Assembly: GCF_902459735.1 (NCBI RefSeq)
Contig: NZ_CABPRV010000008.1
Coordinates: 62,001-126,000 of the forward strand
DNA length: 64,000 bases
Origin: Pandoraea capi
GTDB taxonomy: Bacteria > Pseudomonadota > Gammaproteobacteria > Burkholderiales > Burkholderiaceae
Direction: 5' to 3'
The notes beneath the pieces are model-generated. The model did no database searches. It was not told the DNA's origin and was given only the letters and a program-made list of their open reading frames with translations. A program made the translations under genes and the position numbers. This document shows, in pieces, positions 24,426 through 32,146 of the stretch (the stretch's first letter is position 1; every line of letters starts with the position of its first letter).

Positions 24426-25751
24426 TTACCGGGTCGACGGCACTTCGAACGACTCGAATGTTTCCGCCACGACCGGGCCGCCATAGCCGTATTTGGCGCG
24501 TGGGCGCAGCATGAACGCCTGCGTGCGTTGCTCCATGACATGCGCCACCCAGCCCGCCGAACGCCCGATGATCCACATCGCGGTCGACGTACCGTCGGGC
24601 AATCCCAGCGCCCGTGCGAGCGCCACCAGTCCGGTCGCCAGACCGGCATGCGCGTTCGCCTCGGTGCGCATGCGCTCCAGAAAGTCGAGCGTCAGCCGGG
24701 TGTTCCTGCGCAGCGTGTCGTCAATGGCGCCGTCATCCGTCTCGTTCATCAGCTCACCCGCGATCTGCATCATCAGATCGGCGCGCGCGTCGCCGCCCGG
24801 ATACAGCGGATGATTGAAGCCAAGCAAACTCGCGCCATATTCGCGAACGCGCTGAACGCGTGTGTCCAGCGCATCGAACGGCTCGCATAGCAACAATGTC
24901 TCGATCTTCTCGGTGCTGGTGCCGGTGGTAAAGCCGATGTGCGAACCGATGGCTGCCGCCACACAGCCGAACAGATCGGCGTTGGTGGACGCCGCCACAC
25001 GCGCGGAGAACGTCGCCGGGGCGAGTTCGTTGTCCGCCAGCACGACGAGTGCCGCGTTCATGGCGCGCAGCCTCGCAGGCGTGACAGCGCTGCCGGCCGC
25101 ACGCAGCAGTTGCGCCGCGACACTCTCGTCTGGCTCGCGCGCTACGAAGCGTCGCTGCGGCCCGAGAAAGCCCACGCATCCGACCATGCAATGCAGCATC
25201 GCGCGCGCCGCCTGCACGGCGGTGCCATCGGCCAGTTCACGGGCGCCGCGCCCGTGCATGGCCAGCGCGAACGGCACCATGCCCAACAAGTTGCCGATGT
25301 CTGCGCTCGCGACTTCGCCGTCGTAGGTCGACAGAAAGCGCAGCACGTCGGGCGGCGTCTCCTGCATCGGCCAGTCGGCGATGCTGTCCTGCCAGATCCC
25401 CGTCATCAACAAATGCACGACCGATTCGAACGACGCCCCGCCGCTCGCCAGATCGATCGCCAGCCGGTTGCGATAGCGCGGACCGTGCGGCGTGATCTGC
25501 GTGATGGCCGAGTGCAGCACCGGGTCGCCGAAGCGCATCGTCGATTCCGCCACGGCGCCGGTCGGGGCCCGTCCCCGCTTGCGGGTCGCCAGACGCTCGA
25601 CGTCGCGCCGCAGGTAAAGGCTCTTGCGGCCGTCCTCATGCGGCCGCGCACGGATCAACCCCCGGCTCACATAGGCATAGAGCGTGGCCGGCTTGATATC
25701 GAGCATCGCCAATACGTCCTCACGCGTCATCAGGTCGGTTTGCTGCGTCAT
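24426..25751 (-). CDS. Helix-turn-helix/citrate-synthase-fold fusion, probably a catalytically inactive sensor-regulator
   Basis: 441 residues from ATG 25751 (GGGAG upstream). Residues about 8-60 form a MerR/excisionase-like helix-turn-helix: MTREDVLAMLDIKPATLYAY, then RRDVERLATRKRGR. The rest has citrate synthase architecture. The substrate-histidine motif GFNHPLYPGGDARAD is retained. By eye, the first active-site motif (usually LHGGANE) is TTGTSTE, replacing the catalytic histidine with Thr. The usual NVDF aspartate region reads NAHAG. Two of the three catalytic residues therefore appear lost. Divergence from a transporter-decarboxylase-aldolase operon suggests it binds DNA and senses a CoA ester or organic acid. 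A weakly active citrate or methylcitrate synthase remains possible. Confidence 0.7.
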   Translation of the reverse strand: MTQQTDLMTREDVLAMLDIKPATLYAYVSRGLIRARPHEDGRKSLYLRRDVERLATRKRGRAPTGAVAESTMRFGDPVLHSAITQITPHGPRYRNRLAIDLASGGASFESVVHLLMTGIWQDSIADWPMQETPPDVLRFLSTYDGEVASADIGNLLGMVPFALAMHGRGARELADGTAVQAARAMLHCMVGCVGFLGPQRRFVAREPDESVAAQLLRAAGSAVTPARLRAMNAALVVLADNELAPATFSARVAASTNADLFGCVAAAIGSHIGFTTGTSTEKIETLLLCEPFDALDTRVQRVREYGASLLGFNHPLYPGGDARADLMMQIAGELMNETDDGAIDDTLRRNTRLTLDFLERMRTEANAHAGLATGLVALARALGLPDGTSTAMWIIGRSAGWVAHVMEQRTQAFMLRPRAKYGYGGPVVAETFESFEVPSTR

Positions 25752-25827
25752 CGTCTCCCTCTGAATGGTCTCGCCACGCACGCCGCCGCCTCGCTGCGAC
25801 GGCTTTGCGGCACATCATGCCACATTC

Positions 25828-25850
25828 ATATTGACTTTAAAAATCAATAT
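25828..25850. promoter_or_regulatory. Inverted repeat operator candidate between the HTH-citrate synthase gene and the MFS gene
   Basis: ATATTGA at 25828-25834 and TCAATAT at 25844-25850 form a perfect 7-bp inverted repeat with a 9-nt AT-only spacer apart from one C. It lies in the 224-bp divergent region, 77 bp upstream of the regulator start. It is a natural candidate for binding by the helix-turn-helix domain. Confidence 0.5.
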
Positions 25851-25975
25851 TGATAAACAAAAAATCGGTCAGTAAAGTCGTCTCCGCGTGCACAGCAAAG
25901 TCATGGCAAGACAACAAAGACACTGCGAGCCGGCTTCGTCCGAGCGTCGACAGGTCGCCCATTCGGAGACAACGC

Positions 25976-27340
25976 ATGGCCCTGGACCTACCCTCGCGGG
26001 CAGGCGAACGCATCGACGTTCGCGACGCCCTGCAATCCGCCCCGCTAGGGGCCTTTCACTACCGGCTCGCGACACTGCTCGCGCTGATCCTGCTGTTCGA
26101 CGGCTTCGATCTGTACAACGCCGCTTACATCGTTCACGACGTCACCCGCCTCTGGCATCTGACACCGAGCCAGATCGGCGTGCTGCTGTCGTGCGGACTG
26201 GCCGGATTCGCCGCCGGCTCGGCCGTCTCGGGGCCGTTCAGCGACCGCATCGGCCGCCGTCGCGTCTTGCTCACCGGCATCTGGCTGTCCGGGGTAATGA
26301 GTCTTGCCATCGGGTTGTTTGCCCACGATCTGCGCACCTTCATCGGACTGCGCTTCGTGATGGGGATCTCGCTGGGCCTGCTCATGCCGGTCGCCGTCAC
26401 CTACATCAACGAAATCGCGCCCAAGCGCAGCGCCAACGTCTTCACCATCGTGTTCTTCTCGTGCGGATGGATCGGTGGCGCAACGGCGTCAGGCTTCATC
26501 GCCGCATGGCTCATCCCGCAATACGGATGGCAGAGCATGTATTACGTGGGCGCGCTGTCGGTCGTGCTGGCGCTGGCGCTTCAGTTCGTGCTGCCGGAGT
26601 CGGTCTCGTTCCTCGCCAGTCGCGGTCATCAGGAAGCGGTGCGGGCGCAGCTCACCCGGCTGTGGCCCGCGCGTGCGGCCGAGTTCGCCACGGCGACGTT
26701 CACATCGCCCGACGCCGGCGTGAAAGCCGGTTCGGTCGCCGCGCTCTTCTCCGGTGAGTTTCGCCGTCAGACGATTTGCCTGTGGTCGATGGGGGCGTTG
26801 TCGCTCTTCTCGTCGTATGGCCTGTCGGGCTGGCTGCCCACCATCATGCTGGCACGCGGCGAGAACCTCTCGACGAGTTTCGCCTACGGGTCGCTGCTGG
26901 TCTTCGCCTCGGCGTTCGGCAGTCTGCTCACCGGTGTGGTGGCCGACCGCATCGGCAACCGCCGTCTGGCGATGTCGCTGGCGTGGTTGTGCGGCGCGGC
27001 GGCCATCGGGGTGCTGGCCACGATCACCGGCGGCTCGGTCACGTTCGTGGGCATCGTGGTCGCGGGCATGTTCGTCATCGGCACGCAGACCGTGCTCAAC
27101 AACCTCGTCGCCGTGAGCTATCCGACAGAGATCCGCAGCACCGGCGTCGGCCTCTATCTCGGCATTGCCCGGGTCGGCGCGATGTGCGGCCCGGCCATCG
27201 CCGGCGTGCTGCAACAGGCAACGGGCGGCGCGGGAACGATGTTCTTCGTGCTCGGCGCCGCACTCGTCACCGCCGCGATGCTCGTCTTCCTCGTCGCACG
27301 CCCGGAAAACCTGCCGAAGGCCCCGGCCTTCGGTCACTGA
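25976..27340 (+). CDS. MFS transporter, aromatic acid:H+ symporter (AAHS) family
   Basis: 454 residues, twelve membrane segments. AAHS markers are visible: LILLFDGFDLYNAA in helix 1 (the DGFD motif essential in PcaK), SGPFSDRIGRRRVL after helix 2, and PESVSFL before the central loop. It probably imports an aromatic carboxylate. ATG 25976 has GGAG nine bases upstream; the frame extends further 5' without membrane character. It is the first gene of a plus-strand run with the decarboxylase-like and aldolase genes, 37 bp apart. Confidence 0.85.
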   Translation: MALDLPSRAGERIDVRDALQSAPLGAFHYRLATLLALILLFDGFDLYNAAYIVHDVTRLWHLTPSQIGVLLSCGLAGFAAGSAVSGPFSDRIGRRRVLLTGIWLSGVMSLAIGLFAHDLRTFIGLRFVMGISLGLLMPVAVTYINEIAPKRSANVFTIVFFSCGWIGGATASGFIAAWLIPQYGWQSMYYVGALSVVLALALQFVLPESVSFLASRGHQEAVRAQLTRLWPARAAEFATATFTSPDAGVKAGSVAALFSGEFRRQTICLWSMGALSLFSSYGLSGWLPTIMLARGENLSTSFAYGSLLVFASAFGSLLTGVVADRIGNRRLAMSLAWLCGAAAIGVLATITGGSVTFVGIVVAGMFVIGTQTVLNNLVAVSYPTEIRSTGVGLYLGIARVGAMCGPAIAGVLQQATGGAGTMFFVLGAALVTAAMLVFLVARPENLPKAPAFGH

Positions 27341-27376
27341 TTCATTGAACCTCTACCGTCTGCATCGAAACGCTTC

Positions 27377-28366
27377 ATGAACAGACTGACCCTTTCGCTC
27401 GCCGTCAACGACTACGACCACGTGCGCGATCTGCTCGACGGTCGTGTCTCGGCCCAAGGCATCGACCTCGTGCCGTCCGTGTTGCCCGTCGAAGAAATCT
27501 TCTATCGCACGACGCATTTTCAGGAGTGGGATCTCTCGGAGATGTCGCTCGCCAAATATGCGTCCCTGCGCTCGCAGGGCGACGACCGGCTGATCGGCTT
27601 GCCCGTGTTTCCGTCGCGCGTGTTTCGTTTGTCGTCGCTCTATGTGCGCGCTGACGGCAGCGTGTCCTCGCCGGCCGACTTGCGCGGCAAGCGAATCGGC
27701 GTGCCCGAGTGGGCACAGACGGCGTCGGTGTACTCGCGCGGCTGGCTGGCGCAGGATCAGGGCGTGGCGCTCGCCGATGTCGAGTGGGTGCAAGGCGGCG
27801 TGAATCAGGCCGGACGCCGGGAGAAGGTCGCGGTGCGCGTGCCGGAGGGCGTGCGTTATCGCCCGTCGCCCGAGAAGTCGCTCACCGCCCTGCTGCTCGA
27901 CGGCGAGATCGACGCGATCCTCAGCGCGCGTCCGCCAGCGCCGCCCCCGAGGCGCGAGCGCGAAGTGGTCCGGCTATTGCCCGACTTCGAGACCGCCGAG
28001 CGGGCCTATTTCTCGCGAACGGGCATCTTCCCGATCATGCATCTGATCGTGATGCGACGCGAGGTCTTCACCGCGAATCGATGGATCGCGAACAACCTCG
28101 TCAAGGCGTTCACGCAGGCGAAGGACGCCAGCATTGCGCGACTCGAAGACATCACGTGTTCGCACTTTCCGTTGCCGTGGATGAGCCAGCGCGCCGCACA
28201 AGCCCGCGAAATGTTCGGCGGCGATCCGTGGCCGTACGGCGTCGCGCCCAACCGGGTCACGCTCGACGCCTTCCTGCGCTTCGCCTTCGAACAGGGTGTG
28301 TGTCATCGCGAGATGCAGGCCGACGACCTGTTTCCGCCCGAAGTCTCGGCGGCCGTGCGGGTTTGA
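27377..28366 (+). CDS. 4,5-dihydroxyphthalate decarboxylase-like protein
   Basis: 329 residues without signal peptide, with a periplasmic-binding-protein fold. The N-terminus LTLSLAVNDYDHVRDLLDGR and the FFR-like blocks around SSPADLRGKRIGVPEW are typical of Pht5-type 4,5-dihydroxyphthalate decarboxylases, which use this fold as a cytosolic enzyme (Pht5 is about 330 residues). The true substrate is unknown; a hydroxylated aromatic di-acid fits the neighbouring transporter. Alternative: a cytosolic ligand-binding protein of the NMT1 group. Start ATG 27377. Confidence 0.7.
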   Translation: MNRLTLSLAVNDYDHVRDLLDGRVSAQGIDLVPSVLPVEEIFYRTTHFQEWDLSEMSLAKYASLRSQGDDRLIGLPVFPSRVFRLSSLYVRADGSVSSPADLRGKRIGVPEWAQTASVYSRGWLAQDQGVALADVEWVQGGVNQAGRREKVAVRVPEGVRYRPSPEKSLTALLLDGEIDAILSARPPAPPPRREREVVRLLPDFETAERAYFSRTGIFPIMHLIVMRREVFTANRWIANNLVKAFTQAKDASIARLEDITCSHFPLPWMSQRAAQAREMFGGDPWPYGVAPNRVTLDAFLRFAFEQGVCHREMQADDLFPPEVSAAVRV

Positions 28367-28433
28367 CCCGACGCGGCGCCTCCCTTCGCTTTCGAACCTT
28401 CCATACGTCTAACCACACCTGCCCGACACCATC

Positions 28434-29204
28434 ATGCAAGCCCATACCTCCCCTGCGCCCTACGTTCCCGCAGAGACCGAACACGATGCGATGACGATCG
28501 CGCAACTGTGCGAAGACCTCGCCGCCGCCAATCACGTGCTCGCCCATCATGAAGTGCTCGACGGCTTCGGTCACGTCAGCGTGCGCGATCCGCGCAATCC
28601 GGCGCATTTCCTGATCGCGCAATCGATGGCGCCCGAACTCGTCTCGCCCGACGACATCCTCACGCTCGACCTCGATTGCCAGCCGGTCGACGGCGACACG
28701 CGCAAGCGGTATCTCGAGACGTGGATTCATAGCGAGATCTATCGCGCCCGTCCGGACGTCAAGGCCATCGTGCACAGTCACTCGCCGTCCGTGATTCCGT
28801 TCGCCGCATCATCGGTACGACTGCGCCCGGTGTATCACATGGCCGGCTTTCTCGGCAGCGGCGCGCCGGTGTTCGACATCCGGCACTGCTTCGGCTGCAC
28901 GGACATGCTCGTGCGCAACGGCGAACAGGGCAAAGCGCTCGCTGAGTCGCTGGGCGACTCGGACGTCGCCCTCATGCGGGGTCATGGTTTCGTGGCGACG
29001 GCACCCTCGCTGCCAGCCGCCGTCTATCGCGCGATCTACACCGAACTCAACGCGGGCATGCAAGCGAAGGCCATCGCGCTCGGCGGCGACGTGACGTATC
29101 TGGACGAAGAAGAAGGCAAGCGCGCCACGCAGACCAATCTCGGCGTGATGGAGCGGCCCTGGACGTTGTGGAAACGTCAGGCGGCAGCCCTGCGCGGCGA
29201 GTGA
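28434..29204 (+). CDS. Class II aldolase/adducin family protein, possible aromatic-acid decarboxylase
   Basis: 256 residues. Metal ligands typical of the family are seen at His114 and His116 (IVHSHSPSV) and His183 (RGHGFVA), with Glu101 in IHSEIY as candidate acid/base. Family members cleave sugar phosphates or decarboxylate aromatic acids (for example the 3,4-dihydroxyphthalate 2-decarboxylase group). Linkage to a dihydroxyphthalate-decarboxylase-like protein and an aromatic acid transporter favours the latter. ATG 28434 is used; an internal ATG at 28491 is closer to the conserved start and could be correct. No clear ribosome site at either. Confidence 0.72.
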   Translation: MQAHTSPAPYVPAETEHDAMTIAQLCEDLAAANHVLAHHEVLDGFGHVSVRDPRNPAHFLIAQSMAPELVSPDDILTLDLDCQPVDGDTRKRYLETWIHSEIYRARPDVKAIVHSHSPSVIPFAASSVRLRPVYHMAGFLGSGAPVFDIRHCFGCTDMLVRNGEQGKALAESLGDSDVALMRGHGFVATAPSLPAAVYRAIYTELNAGMQAKAIALGGDVTYLDEEEGKRATQTNLGVMERPWTLWKRQAAALRGE

Positions 29205-29991: not shown

Positions 29992-30193
29992 ATGCCATTC
30001 CTCTTCAAAGTCGCTACGCGTGTCGCGCCTTCGCCACCGGCGACATGCCGGGCAGCCTTGCGACGCGACCCGCAGAGCAATATAGAAGGACGGGATACCT
30101 GGCGGAAGACGCAGCGATTGCACTGATAACATGCACGAAACGCCTTATCTCGTGCCAAGCCCCGTGCACGCGCCATCACGACTGGAAACGCCG

Positions 30194-31174
30194 ATGTCCG
30201 ACCCTGATCTGAATCTGCTCGTTGCGCTGGACACCTTGCTCGCGCAAGCGAGCGTGGCAGGTGCCGCGCGACAACTCGGGCTGAGTGCGTCGGCCATGAG
30301 CCGTACGCTCAGCCGTCTGCGAGACGTCACCGGCGACCCGCTGCTGGTGCGTGCCGGCCGACGCATGGTGCTCACGCCGCATGCCGAACACCTGCGTTCG
30401 CGCAGCCGCGGCGCCGTCGATGAGGCCCGCGCCCTACTGACGCCTGCGGCAGCGTCACTGGATCTGGCGAACCTGCAACGGACGTTCACGATTCGGGCGA
30501 ACGATGGCTTTGTGGAGGCGTTCGGCGCGCGCCTGATCGCGGCGGTGACAGCACTCGCGCCGCATGCGGGCCTTCGATTTCTGCCCAAGGCCGAGAAGCA
30601 CGCGGACCCGCTGCGCGAGGGGCGTGCCGATCTCGAGATCGGTGTGCTCGGCGCCGTTGGCGACGCGGGCAACATGGGGCCGGAGATTCGCGTGCAGGCG
30701 CTGTTTCGCGACCGGTTTGTCGGTGCGGTGCGCTCGGGTCATCCGCTGGCGACCGGCATGTCGTCCGGCACTTCGGCCGATAGCCCCAGCGATACGCCAC
30801 CCGGCGTCGAAAGATACGTCGCCTTCGGGCACGTCGTGGCATCGCGCCGGGGCATTGGCAACGGACCGGTCGACGAAGCGCTCGCGGCGTTGGGGCGGCA
30901 ACGGCAGATCGTCGCCGTCGTCCCCAGTTTTCCGGCAGCGCTGGCGGTGGCGCAAGCGTCCGATCTGATCGCGCTGGTGCCGGTGTCGCTGCTGCAAGCG
31001 CCGCACGCACGGCGAGGACCGGCCTCGCCCGCCCCCTTCCACAGCTTCACGCTGCCCGTGGCAACCGCTCCGGTTATCGTGTCGTTGATGTGGCATCCGC
31101 GCATGGACGCCGATGCCGCACATCGCTGGTTGCGTCAGCACATCGTCATGGTGTGCCGTGGTGACGCCGCCTGA
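30194..31174 (+). CDS. LysR-family transcriptional regulator
   Basis: 326 residues from ATG 30194. The N-terminal helix-turn-helix LALDTLLAQASVAGAARQLG...SAMSRTLSRLRDVTGD resembles NodD/LinR-type LysR proteins. A LysR substrate-binding domain follows. A GGAAA site is weak. It is divergent from the SDR gene (202-bp gap), its likely target, and convergent with the AraC gene. Confidence 0.82.
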   Translation: MSDPDLNLLVALDTLLAQASVAGAARQLGLSASAMSRTLSRLRDVTGDPLLVRAGRRMVLTPHAEHLRSRSRGAVDEARALLTPAAASLDLANLQRTFTIRANDGFVEAFGARLIAAVTALAPHAGLRFLPKAEKHADPLREGRADLEIGVLGAVGDAGNMGPEIRVQALFRDRFVGAVRSGHPLATGMSSGTSADSPSDTPPGVERYVAFGHVVASRRGIGNGPVDEALAALGRQRQIVAVVPSFPAALAVAQASDLIALVPVSLLQAPHARRGPASPAPFHSFTLPVATAPVIVSLMWHPRMDADAAHRWLRQHIVMVCRGDAA

Positions 31175-31195: not shown

Positions 31196-32146
31196 TTAGC
31201 GCCGCTCCGTCTGTCGCGCTTGAGCCCGCCACTGCGCGGGCGTCACGCCGACGACCTTCTTGAACACACGCTGAAATGCGGCATCGGACTGGTAGCCGAC
31301 GGATTCGCCGATGTCGGCGACGGATGCCGTCGTATGCGCAAGCTTGCGGCCTGCGAGCGTCATGCGAATCTCAGTGAGGAAGTCGTGCGCCGAGCATCCG
31401 AGCGCCTCATCGAAGCGGCGTGAGAACGTGGCGCGCGACATGTGGCACAACTCGGCCAGATCGGGCAACGACCACGCACGCTCCGGCGTATCGAACATCG
31501 CCGACAGCGCCGGTTGGAGACGGGGTTCGCGCGCGAGGGCCAGCAAGCCGCGCGGCGAGTTATCGCTCTCGCTTGCCGCGCGCAGCGTCATCGCGAACAA
31601 GGCCCCCGACAGATTGCCGACGAGCGCTTCGCATCCGGCCTCCTGCGCCATCGTTTCGTCGCGCATGAGCGCGATCAGCCGCGCCAGCCGGTCGCCGATA
31701 CTGCCCGGCGCCGGTGCCTGCCCATCGGCCTGCCGCCCCCCTCGCACCACCATGCGCGACGGCAGGTACGTCTGAATCAGCCCATACGGCACCGTACCGA
31801 AGAAGAAGCGTCCGCACAGCACGTCGGCCGCATCGCCGTTGCCCTGACGCAAGATGGTGAAACCCGCGCCCGCTTCGAAGTGCGGCGGGTCCTTCTGACG
31901 TCCCTCCCCCTCATGCAGCGAATGCGCATGCCCCGCCGGAAACATCACGATATCGCCCGCCGTCATCACGACCGGCGGCCCGTCGCCATGCTCGACGGTA
32001 GCGGTGCCGCTCAGCAGCAAGTGCCAGGCGATCTGACTGTCGGGCGCACGCGCTTCGTCGATCCGCCACGGGGTGCCGAAATGACAACGGAAGTCGAGTT
32101 GTCCGGTCACGGGAATCAGTGTCAGGAGGCGATCCAGCAGATTCAT
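31196..32146 (-). CDS. AraC-family regulator with N-terminal cupin domain
   Basis: 316 residues. Residues about 15-170 form a cupin-type sensing domain (GTATVEHGDGPPVVMTAGD, FPAGHAHSL). The C-terminal two helix-turn-helix AraC domain includes LAELCHMSRATFSRRF and the VADIGESVGYQSDAAFQRVF signature. It is divergent from the AhpD-like gene, a common pairing in proteobacteria, and probably controls it. The 148-bp gap holds the promoters. Confidence 0.87.
   Translation of the reverse strand: MNLLDRLLTLIPVTGQLDFRCHFGTPWRIDEARAPDSQIAWHLLLSGTATVEHGDGPPVVMTAGDIVMFPAGHAHSLHEGEGRQKDPPHFEAGAGFTILRQGNGDAADVLCGRFFFGTVPYGLIQTYLPSRMVVRGGRQADGQAPAPGSIGDRLARLIALMRDETMAQEAGCEALVGNLSGALFAMTLRAASESDNSPRGLLALAREPRLQPALSAMFDTPERAWSLPDLAELCHMSRATFSRRFDEALGCSAHDFLTEIRMTLAGRKLAHTTASVADIGESVGYQSDAAFQRVFKKVVGVTPAQWRAQARQTERR

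Follow-up and report, generated by a model that had tools for sequence, protein, structure and literature searches.

The gene at positions 24426–25751 (minus strand) of a 64,000-nucleotide stretch of the Pandoraea capi genome, hereafter the window, quite likely encodes a one-component regulator with a citrate-synthase-fold sensor, which would control the divergent operon as well as itself and for which, judging from sequence comparison, a dicarboxylate is the most likely signal. In the proposed mechanism the citrate-synthase fold would act as the sensor and the N-terminal helix-turn-helix (HTH) would bind DNA, such that the regulator, presumably as a dimer, occupies the palindrome ATATTGA-N9-TCAATAT in the intergenic region that separates its own gene from the divergent transporter/decarboxylase operon. 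The bound regulator would overlap the -35 box of the operon and thereby control both the operon and its own gene. The acyl-CoA-activating residues of the active site are gone and the site that grips carboxylates (the equivalents of His305, Arg314, Arg387 and Arg407) is intact, and the signal is perhaps an aromatic dicarboxylate that is taken up and decarboxylated by the products of the operon. We infer DNA binding, binding as a dimer, the ligand and the sign of control; repression is slightly favoured over activation, because the operator overlaps the -35 box.

The fusion gene and its active site

The window corresponds to C8:62001-126000 of the 5.85-Mb genome. The fusion gene lies within an open frame at 24426–25781 (minus strand) that offers GTG 25781 as an alternative start, but ATG 25751, which yields a protein of 441 amino acids, is the likely start, since GGGAG directly precedes it and a methionine occupies the same column of the Pandoraea orthologues. 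The fusion of a helix-turn-helix to a citrate-synthase domain, as put forward in the original prediction, is confirmed by Pfam, which at E up to 0.001 identifies only an HTH_17 DNA-binding domain (25578–25733, minus strand; E 2.5e-6, 28.1 bits, barely above the cut-off of 27) and Citrate_synt (PF00285; 24498–25523, minus strand; E 3.5e-41, 141.9 bits against a cut-off of 27). The protein has both traits of the family, namely the fused citrate-synthase domain and an HTH_17-type domain with the motif TLYxYVSRG, which is nearly invariant throughout HTH-citrate-synthase fusions. Its nearest named relatives are from Pandoraea species, with an identity of up to 94%, and orthologous loci number 21. 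A pseudogene was considered and rejected: dN/dS is 0.045–0.182 in 11 comparisons of the window fusion with other Pandoraea, indicating that the gene is not decaying and is under purifying selection; three other comparisons gave 0.094–0.115.

Residue equivalences were obtained with MAFFT and with profile-profile alignment (hhalign), which agree, using GltA and PrpC of the same genome as references; positions are given in what we take to be the E. coli citrate synthase numbering (His229, His264, His305, Arg314, Asp362, Arg387, Arg407), and residue counts cover the window gene and its 21 orthologues (L001-L020 and L023; n = 22). All codons are on the minus strand. The place of the catalytic His264 is taken by Thr276 (codon 24924–24926), which is a threonine in 22/22, and that of the catalytic Asp362 by Ala372 (24636–24638), which is alanine in 21 and serine in one; both assignments are agreed upon by hhalign. 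Alignment with real synthases therefore bears out the predicted replacement of the catalytic histidine, and the conservation expected of the substitutions among orthologues is found at both places. The predicted loss of the aspartate also stands, but not the site proposed for it, NAHAG, since the aligned residue is the alanine of GLATG, four residues past the histidine of NAHAG. A third loss, absent from the original prediction, affects His229, where DHE has become DNE and Asn241 (25029–25031) is an asparagine in all 22 sequences. By contrast, the motif GFNHPLYPGG is retained as described and includes His314 (24810–24812), the equivalent of His305, which is kept in 22/22, as are the equivalents of Arg314 of the oxaloacetate site (Arg323, 24783–24785), Arg387 (Arg397, 24561–24563) and Arg407 (Arg418, 24498–24500).

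All 19 listed matches to curated NCBIfam models stay below their cut-offs, the best being TIGR01800 with 105.1 bits against 421.3. These scores, together with the exchange of His264 for Thr276 and of Asp362 for Ala372, led us to reject an active citrate/2-methylcitrate synthase. Because the acyl-CoA-activating His264 and Asp362 are gone, and His229 too, the sensor should no longer make citrate, and loss of synthase activity should hold for the window protein, as far as its residues tell. Some other enzymatic function, for example that of a citryl-CoA lyase or of a different condensing enzyme, might instead survive in a protein that carries a DNA-binding domain, as citryl-CoA lyase profiles match weakly and His305 and the three arginines remain; the loss of the catalytic histidine and aspartate and the same 19 sub-threshold scores make this hardly credible. 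Elsewhere in the genome, a 278-residue citrate-synthase-like protein without HTH (L044:1426-2262, G000:C16) is perhaps an enzyme of the citryl-CoA lyase type; the genes beside it resemble, by eye, a CaiB-type CoA-transferase and an IclR-type regulator.

The fusion family and the clade without Asp362

Homologue searches covered the order (300 genomes, matches in 15 at E up to 1e-50), the class (369 genomes, matches in 5), the phylum (398 genomes, matches in 44) and the family (299 genomes, matches in 45), the last three with an E limit of 1e-60; the genome of the window itself is among those counted. Outside the window's order the catalytic site is usually intact, with His229, His264, His305 and Asp362 all kept in 19 of the 21 rows read (from the best 30 loci per search, with L076, L083, L086 and L088 left out), the other two differing at His305. 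The Pandoraea capi genome itself carries an intact paralogue (L042:1288-2505, which is G000:C2:173308-174507 and also L061), an HTH-citrate-synthase fusion with all four catalytic-site residues, divergent from a type III CoA-transferase gene and with an exact operator upstream.

Asp362 is kept in 31 of 54 tree rows, and His264 in 30 of those 31. In the 54-row tree, which was set to omit the seven active-site columns, the 23 rows lacking Asp362 group in a single clade (support 100/100). Ten close rows (L001, L003, L005-L008, L016-L018 and L020) were excluded from both trees, and two outgroups and the long-branch L114 from this careful one. On this tree a single loss of Asp362 suffices, and the absence of His264 requires two, the second in L133. 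All rows of this dead clade come from the order to which the window belongs or, in the case of L021 and L022, carry the label betaproteobacterial. The proposal of a pseudoenzyme regulator class is supported for one clade and fails for the family as a whole.

Of the 59 columns with a conservation of 93% or more across the 31 Asp362-bearing rows, 36 persist in 22 or all of the 23 dead-clade rows, the dead set being the 23-row clade of the tree that was set to omit the Asp362 column. Five of the 59 are lost in all 23, namely those of His264 and Asp362 and of residues 212, 219 and 232 of the window protein; for Asp362 this follows from the way in which the row sets were divided. The clade retains His305 in 20/23, Arg314 in 23/23, Arg387 in 22/23 and Arg407 in 22/23 with one gap. 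In 49 further rows, which were found with a profile of the window clade, and therefore lean to dead members, and which include the window's own gene (L136) and one gene twice (L165, L166), neither His264 nor Asp362 occurs in any, and His305 and the three arginines are present in all. Their states at positions 229, 264, 305 and 362 include HTHE, HSHE, HTHA, HVHA, HTHS, FTHA, NQHF and NTHA. The site was perhaps dismantled stepwise, with His264 lost and Asp362 changed to glutamate, then to alanine, followed by His229 to asparagine, an order guessed from the states seen.

Candidate operator, divergent operon and proposed signal

The inverted repeat that had been noticed between the divergent genes is an exact palindrome, ATATTGA-N9-TCAATAT, at 25828–25850, and represents a candidate operator; when two mismatches are tolerated, the expected number of matches in the window is 0.04. 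The full consensus, TCAATMTTGA-N9-TCAAYMT, covers the same site at 25828–25853 on the minus strand. The divergent operon has a promoter-like site, TTGATA-17-TAAAGT, at 25850–25878 on the plus strand (one found versus 0.2 expected), the -35 box of which (25850–25855) shares 1 to 4 bases with the operator. Operator and promoter-like site lie in ungapped register in the window and all 21 loci (22/22), with TTGAT and TAnAGT invariant. The overlap with the -35 box implies that binding would affect the divergent operon, and the closeness of the operator to the fusion's own start suggests autoregulation. MerR operators are located between -35 and -10 boxes with a 19–20 bp spacer. Membership of this family was rejected, given that the spacer of the best promoter-like site is 17, that the operator lies upstream of and overlaps its -35 box, and that the fusion protein matches none of the MerR family models (Pfam, E up to 0.001).

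When the 5.85-Mb genome was searched with the full consensus, two exact sites were found, each upstream of one of the two HTH-citrate-synthase fusions. No site has one mismatch. Two mismatches occur in two rows, one of which is the window site read in the opposite orientation, and three mismatches in 15 rows; a control with the consensus written backwards gave 3 and 2 rows. That the genome's only two exact sites belong to these two genes, and that the helices of both proteins share TLYAYVSRG, would fit a regulator that acts together with the intact paralogue, as a heteromer or as a competitor on a shared operator. Since the two proteins are only 29–32% identical, mixed dimers are doubtful, and we regard such a partnership as improbable.

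The short form of the operator accompanies the family widely, and the window fusion has this family trait, TCAATNTTGA-N9-TCAA, upstream. Within 215 bases around the HTH start, TTGA-N9-TCAA is present at 49 of 64 fusion genes (63 loci), compared with 4 of 503 other called genes, a control that omits genes starting less than 700 bases from a fusion start or less than 215 from the end of a locus and in which some calls may be shadows. In total, the 807 kb of fusion loci hold 58 such sites, while spacers of 5–8 and 10–13 give 2–17 each. When classes are assigned by the Asp362 residue itself, the site lies upstream of 28/32 Asp362-bearing fusions (including L114, whose residues are not tabulated, and L133, which is without His264), at 21/21 loci of the window clade and at 0/11 other dead-clade members. 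Four of these eleven (L120, L121, L123 and L117) have an N8 form instead, as if the spacing of the half-sites had shifted. With 4 N9, 2 N8 and 13 exactly neither among 19 further dead-clade loci, the N9 operator is not universal in the dead clade. The nearly invariant HTH motif and the conserved operator together suggest that the family binds this site, and the use of the same operator by intact-site fusions means that regulation does not need the loss of catalysis. The fusion of L111 has no operator site of its own; two operator-like sites (L111:3101–3290) precede a 2-hydroxyacid dehydrogenase-type gene located about 3 kb away from it. A gene of the same type is also present in L112, where it is divergent from a fusion that has the operator upstream.

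The operon spans 25976–29204 on the plus strand and comprises three genes, in agreement with the original description of a divergent aromatic-acid operon. The first (25976–27340) encodes an MFS transporter of the aromatic acid/H+ symport type (TIGR00895, 291.5 bits, below the cut-off of 418.55). It is followed by a relative of 4,5-dihydroxyphthalate decarboxylase (27377–28366), which matches its nearest solved relative, PDB 9jp7, over nearly its full length (E 8.8e-80) and Pfam NMT1, and has no NCBIfam match. The third product (28434–29204) is of the class II aldolase type, and its nearest solved relative is Mlr6791 (PDB 2z7b, E 3.9e-49), which we take to be a pyridine-dicarboxylate decarboxylase; it scores 89.1 bits with the NCBIfam model for 3,4-dihydroxyphthalate decarboxylase, below the cut-off of 200, and is, by homology, probably a decarboxylase of an aromatic dicarboxylate. 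The transporter gene is divergent from the fusion in 21/21 orthologous loci and the class II aldolase gene is present in 20/21, one contig ending. The decarboxylase gene stands beside the operon in 14/21, one contig ending before reaching it, and is absent there in 6/21, all Caballeronia/Burkholderia, which weakens a specific phthalate-type ligand.

A LysR gene (30131–31174) and an AraC gene (31196–32146) are found nearby in the window by Pfam, so that the palindrome might belong to another transcription factor and the fusion might not regulate the operon, given that binding of the fusion to this operator is a prediction. However, the same palindrome accompanies HTH-citrate-synthase fusions in several classes of the phylum, and the presence of the LysR and AraC genes varies from one Pandoraea locus to the next, whereas the fusion is constant, in loci that were fetched by the fusion itself; we therefore give this explanation very little weight. 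The reading in which the fusion regulates the operon, as the original prediction had it, is favoured by the conservation of the operator, by its being nearly unique in the genome and by its association with such fusions across the phylum.

Less well borne out is the acyl-CoA part of its proposed signal, an acyl-CoA or oxaloacetate-like metabolite, because the activating residues are lost. The loss of the acyl-CoA-activating residues and the retention of the dicarboxylate-binding ones make a dicarboxylate the likelier signal, and the two decarboxylase-like enzymes of the operon point to an aromatic one. The same regulator could nevertheless respond to acyl-CoA or oxaloacetate itself, as it has the fold of an enzyme of both and keeps the oxaloacetate arginines, and as three dead-clade genes adjoin a CoA-transferase (L119, L022) or an enoyl-CoA hydratase (L117). 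Against acyl-CoA, His264 and Asp362 are missing from all 23 dead-clade rows, and Pfam and NCBIfam gave no match to a CoA-dependent family for any of the three operon genes. His229 is an oxaloacetate contact in citrate synthase, and its replacement by asparagine in 22/22 speaks against oxaloacetate. Overall, we consider either of these signals rather unlikely.

The genes divergent from Asp362-bearing fusions are often enzymes of the parent chemistry; the identities of neighbours rest on profile matches unless otherwise stated. In G+C-rich loci all open frames were searched and genes were then called by a home-made composition score, the calls of which include shadows, for example in L117 and L119. 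In other classes of the phylum, the Asp362-bearing fusion is divergent from a standalone citrate synthase in 11/12 loci (one NCBIfam-checked). In other orders of the class it is divergent from prpB, with a prpC-like gene behind, in 4/6 loci (L096, L097, L098 and L135); prpB scores above its curated cut-off in all four, the prpC-like gene was checked with NCBIfam in L096 and by motif in the other three, and acnD of the methylcitrate cycle was checked in L096 only. This arrangement suggests that intact fusions beside prp genes are citrate-synthase-fold regulators of propionate use. Within the window's order, the Asp362-bearing fusion is divergent from a type III CoA-transferase in 5/9 tested loci, the divergent genes of the other four being a methyltransferase, a cupin, a prolyl oligopeptidase and a TonB receptor.

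Relatives in the dead clade adjoin a mixed set, comprising TctC receptors (L120, L123), class II aldolases (L123, L021), CoA-transferases (L119, L022), a Rieske oxygenase with an enoyl-CoA hydratase (L117) and UbiD (L021), and also LysE, SDR, EutA, flavoprotein, luciferase-type and TPP-enzyme genes; L118:3756-5192 has no Pfam family match. In L123 (7385–11327), the fusion is divergent from genes for a TctC receptor and class II aldolase-type, cupin and fumarylacetoacetate hydrolase-type proteins, which looks like an aromatic-acid (gentisate-like) cluster. The chances seem about even that the fusions are Pseudomonadota-wide metabolite-sensing factors with a common operator, which arose from citrate synthase and sense (methyl)citrate-type signals, and that one clade, in the window's order, dismantled the acyl-CoA half and kept the dicarboxylate half for new, often aromatic, acids.

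Comparison with known systems

If these readings are correct, proteins annotated as citrate synthase include regulators, some of them located next to prp genes for propionate use, and active sites that range from intact to dead make the conversion of an enzyme into a sensor directly testable. The operator, the promoter and the predicted class of ligand make the regulator reading testable. Compared with citrate/2-methylcitrate synthase (PF00285; TIGR01800), the window protein shares homology over the whole domain, the GFxHPxY motif with the His305-type histidine and the three substrate arginines, but differs in its N-terminal HTH and in the exchanges of His264 for threonine, Asp362 for alanine and His229 for asparagine. 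With the intact-site fusions (L042/L061 and the homologues of the phylum) it has in common the HTH with TLYxYVSRG, the citrate-synthase domain and TTGA-N9-TCAA (28/32). Those fusions keep His264 and Asp362 (30/31 and 31/31), both of which the window protein has lost, and many of them adjoin a citrate synthase, prpB or a CoA-transferase, whereas the window gene adjoins an aromatic-acid operon.

A role of a citrate-synthase protein beyond catalysis is described for Caulobacter CitA, which acts on the cell cycle (PMC7083601). In that study an E. coli gltA mutant was rescued by CitB and not by CitC, and citB and citC bear consecutive locus tags (PMC7083601). This arrangement recalls the gene pairs of the loci described above. 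The study differs in that its text does not mention a helix-turn-helix and refers to DNA-binding only for CtrA (PMC7083601).

In a full-text search, outside which most subscription journals fall, no description of the citrate-synthase fold as a DNA-bound sensor, of its operator or of the dead branch was recognised. Part of the intact class may already have been predicted in a 2012 study that used comparative genomics to examine propionate regulation in proteobacteria; PrpQ, a possible name, does not occur in the papers listed among the matches of the literature search. Regulators built from enzyme folds are known as such. PrpR and CcpC, the regulators for propionate and citrate, control related pathways and respond to metabolites of the same chemistry as proposed for the window regulator, but use other sensor folds. 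In MocR/GabR, an HTH is fused to an enzyme fold that serves as the sensor, in this case an aminotransferase fold joined to a winged helix, so that these proteins and the window regulator would be alike in their working, combining an HTH with an enzyme-fold sensor, without being homologous.
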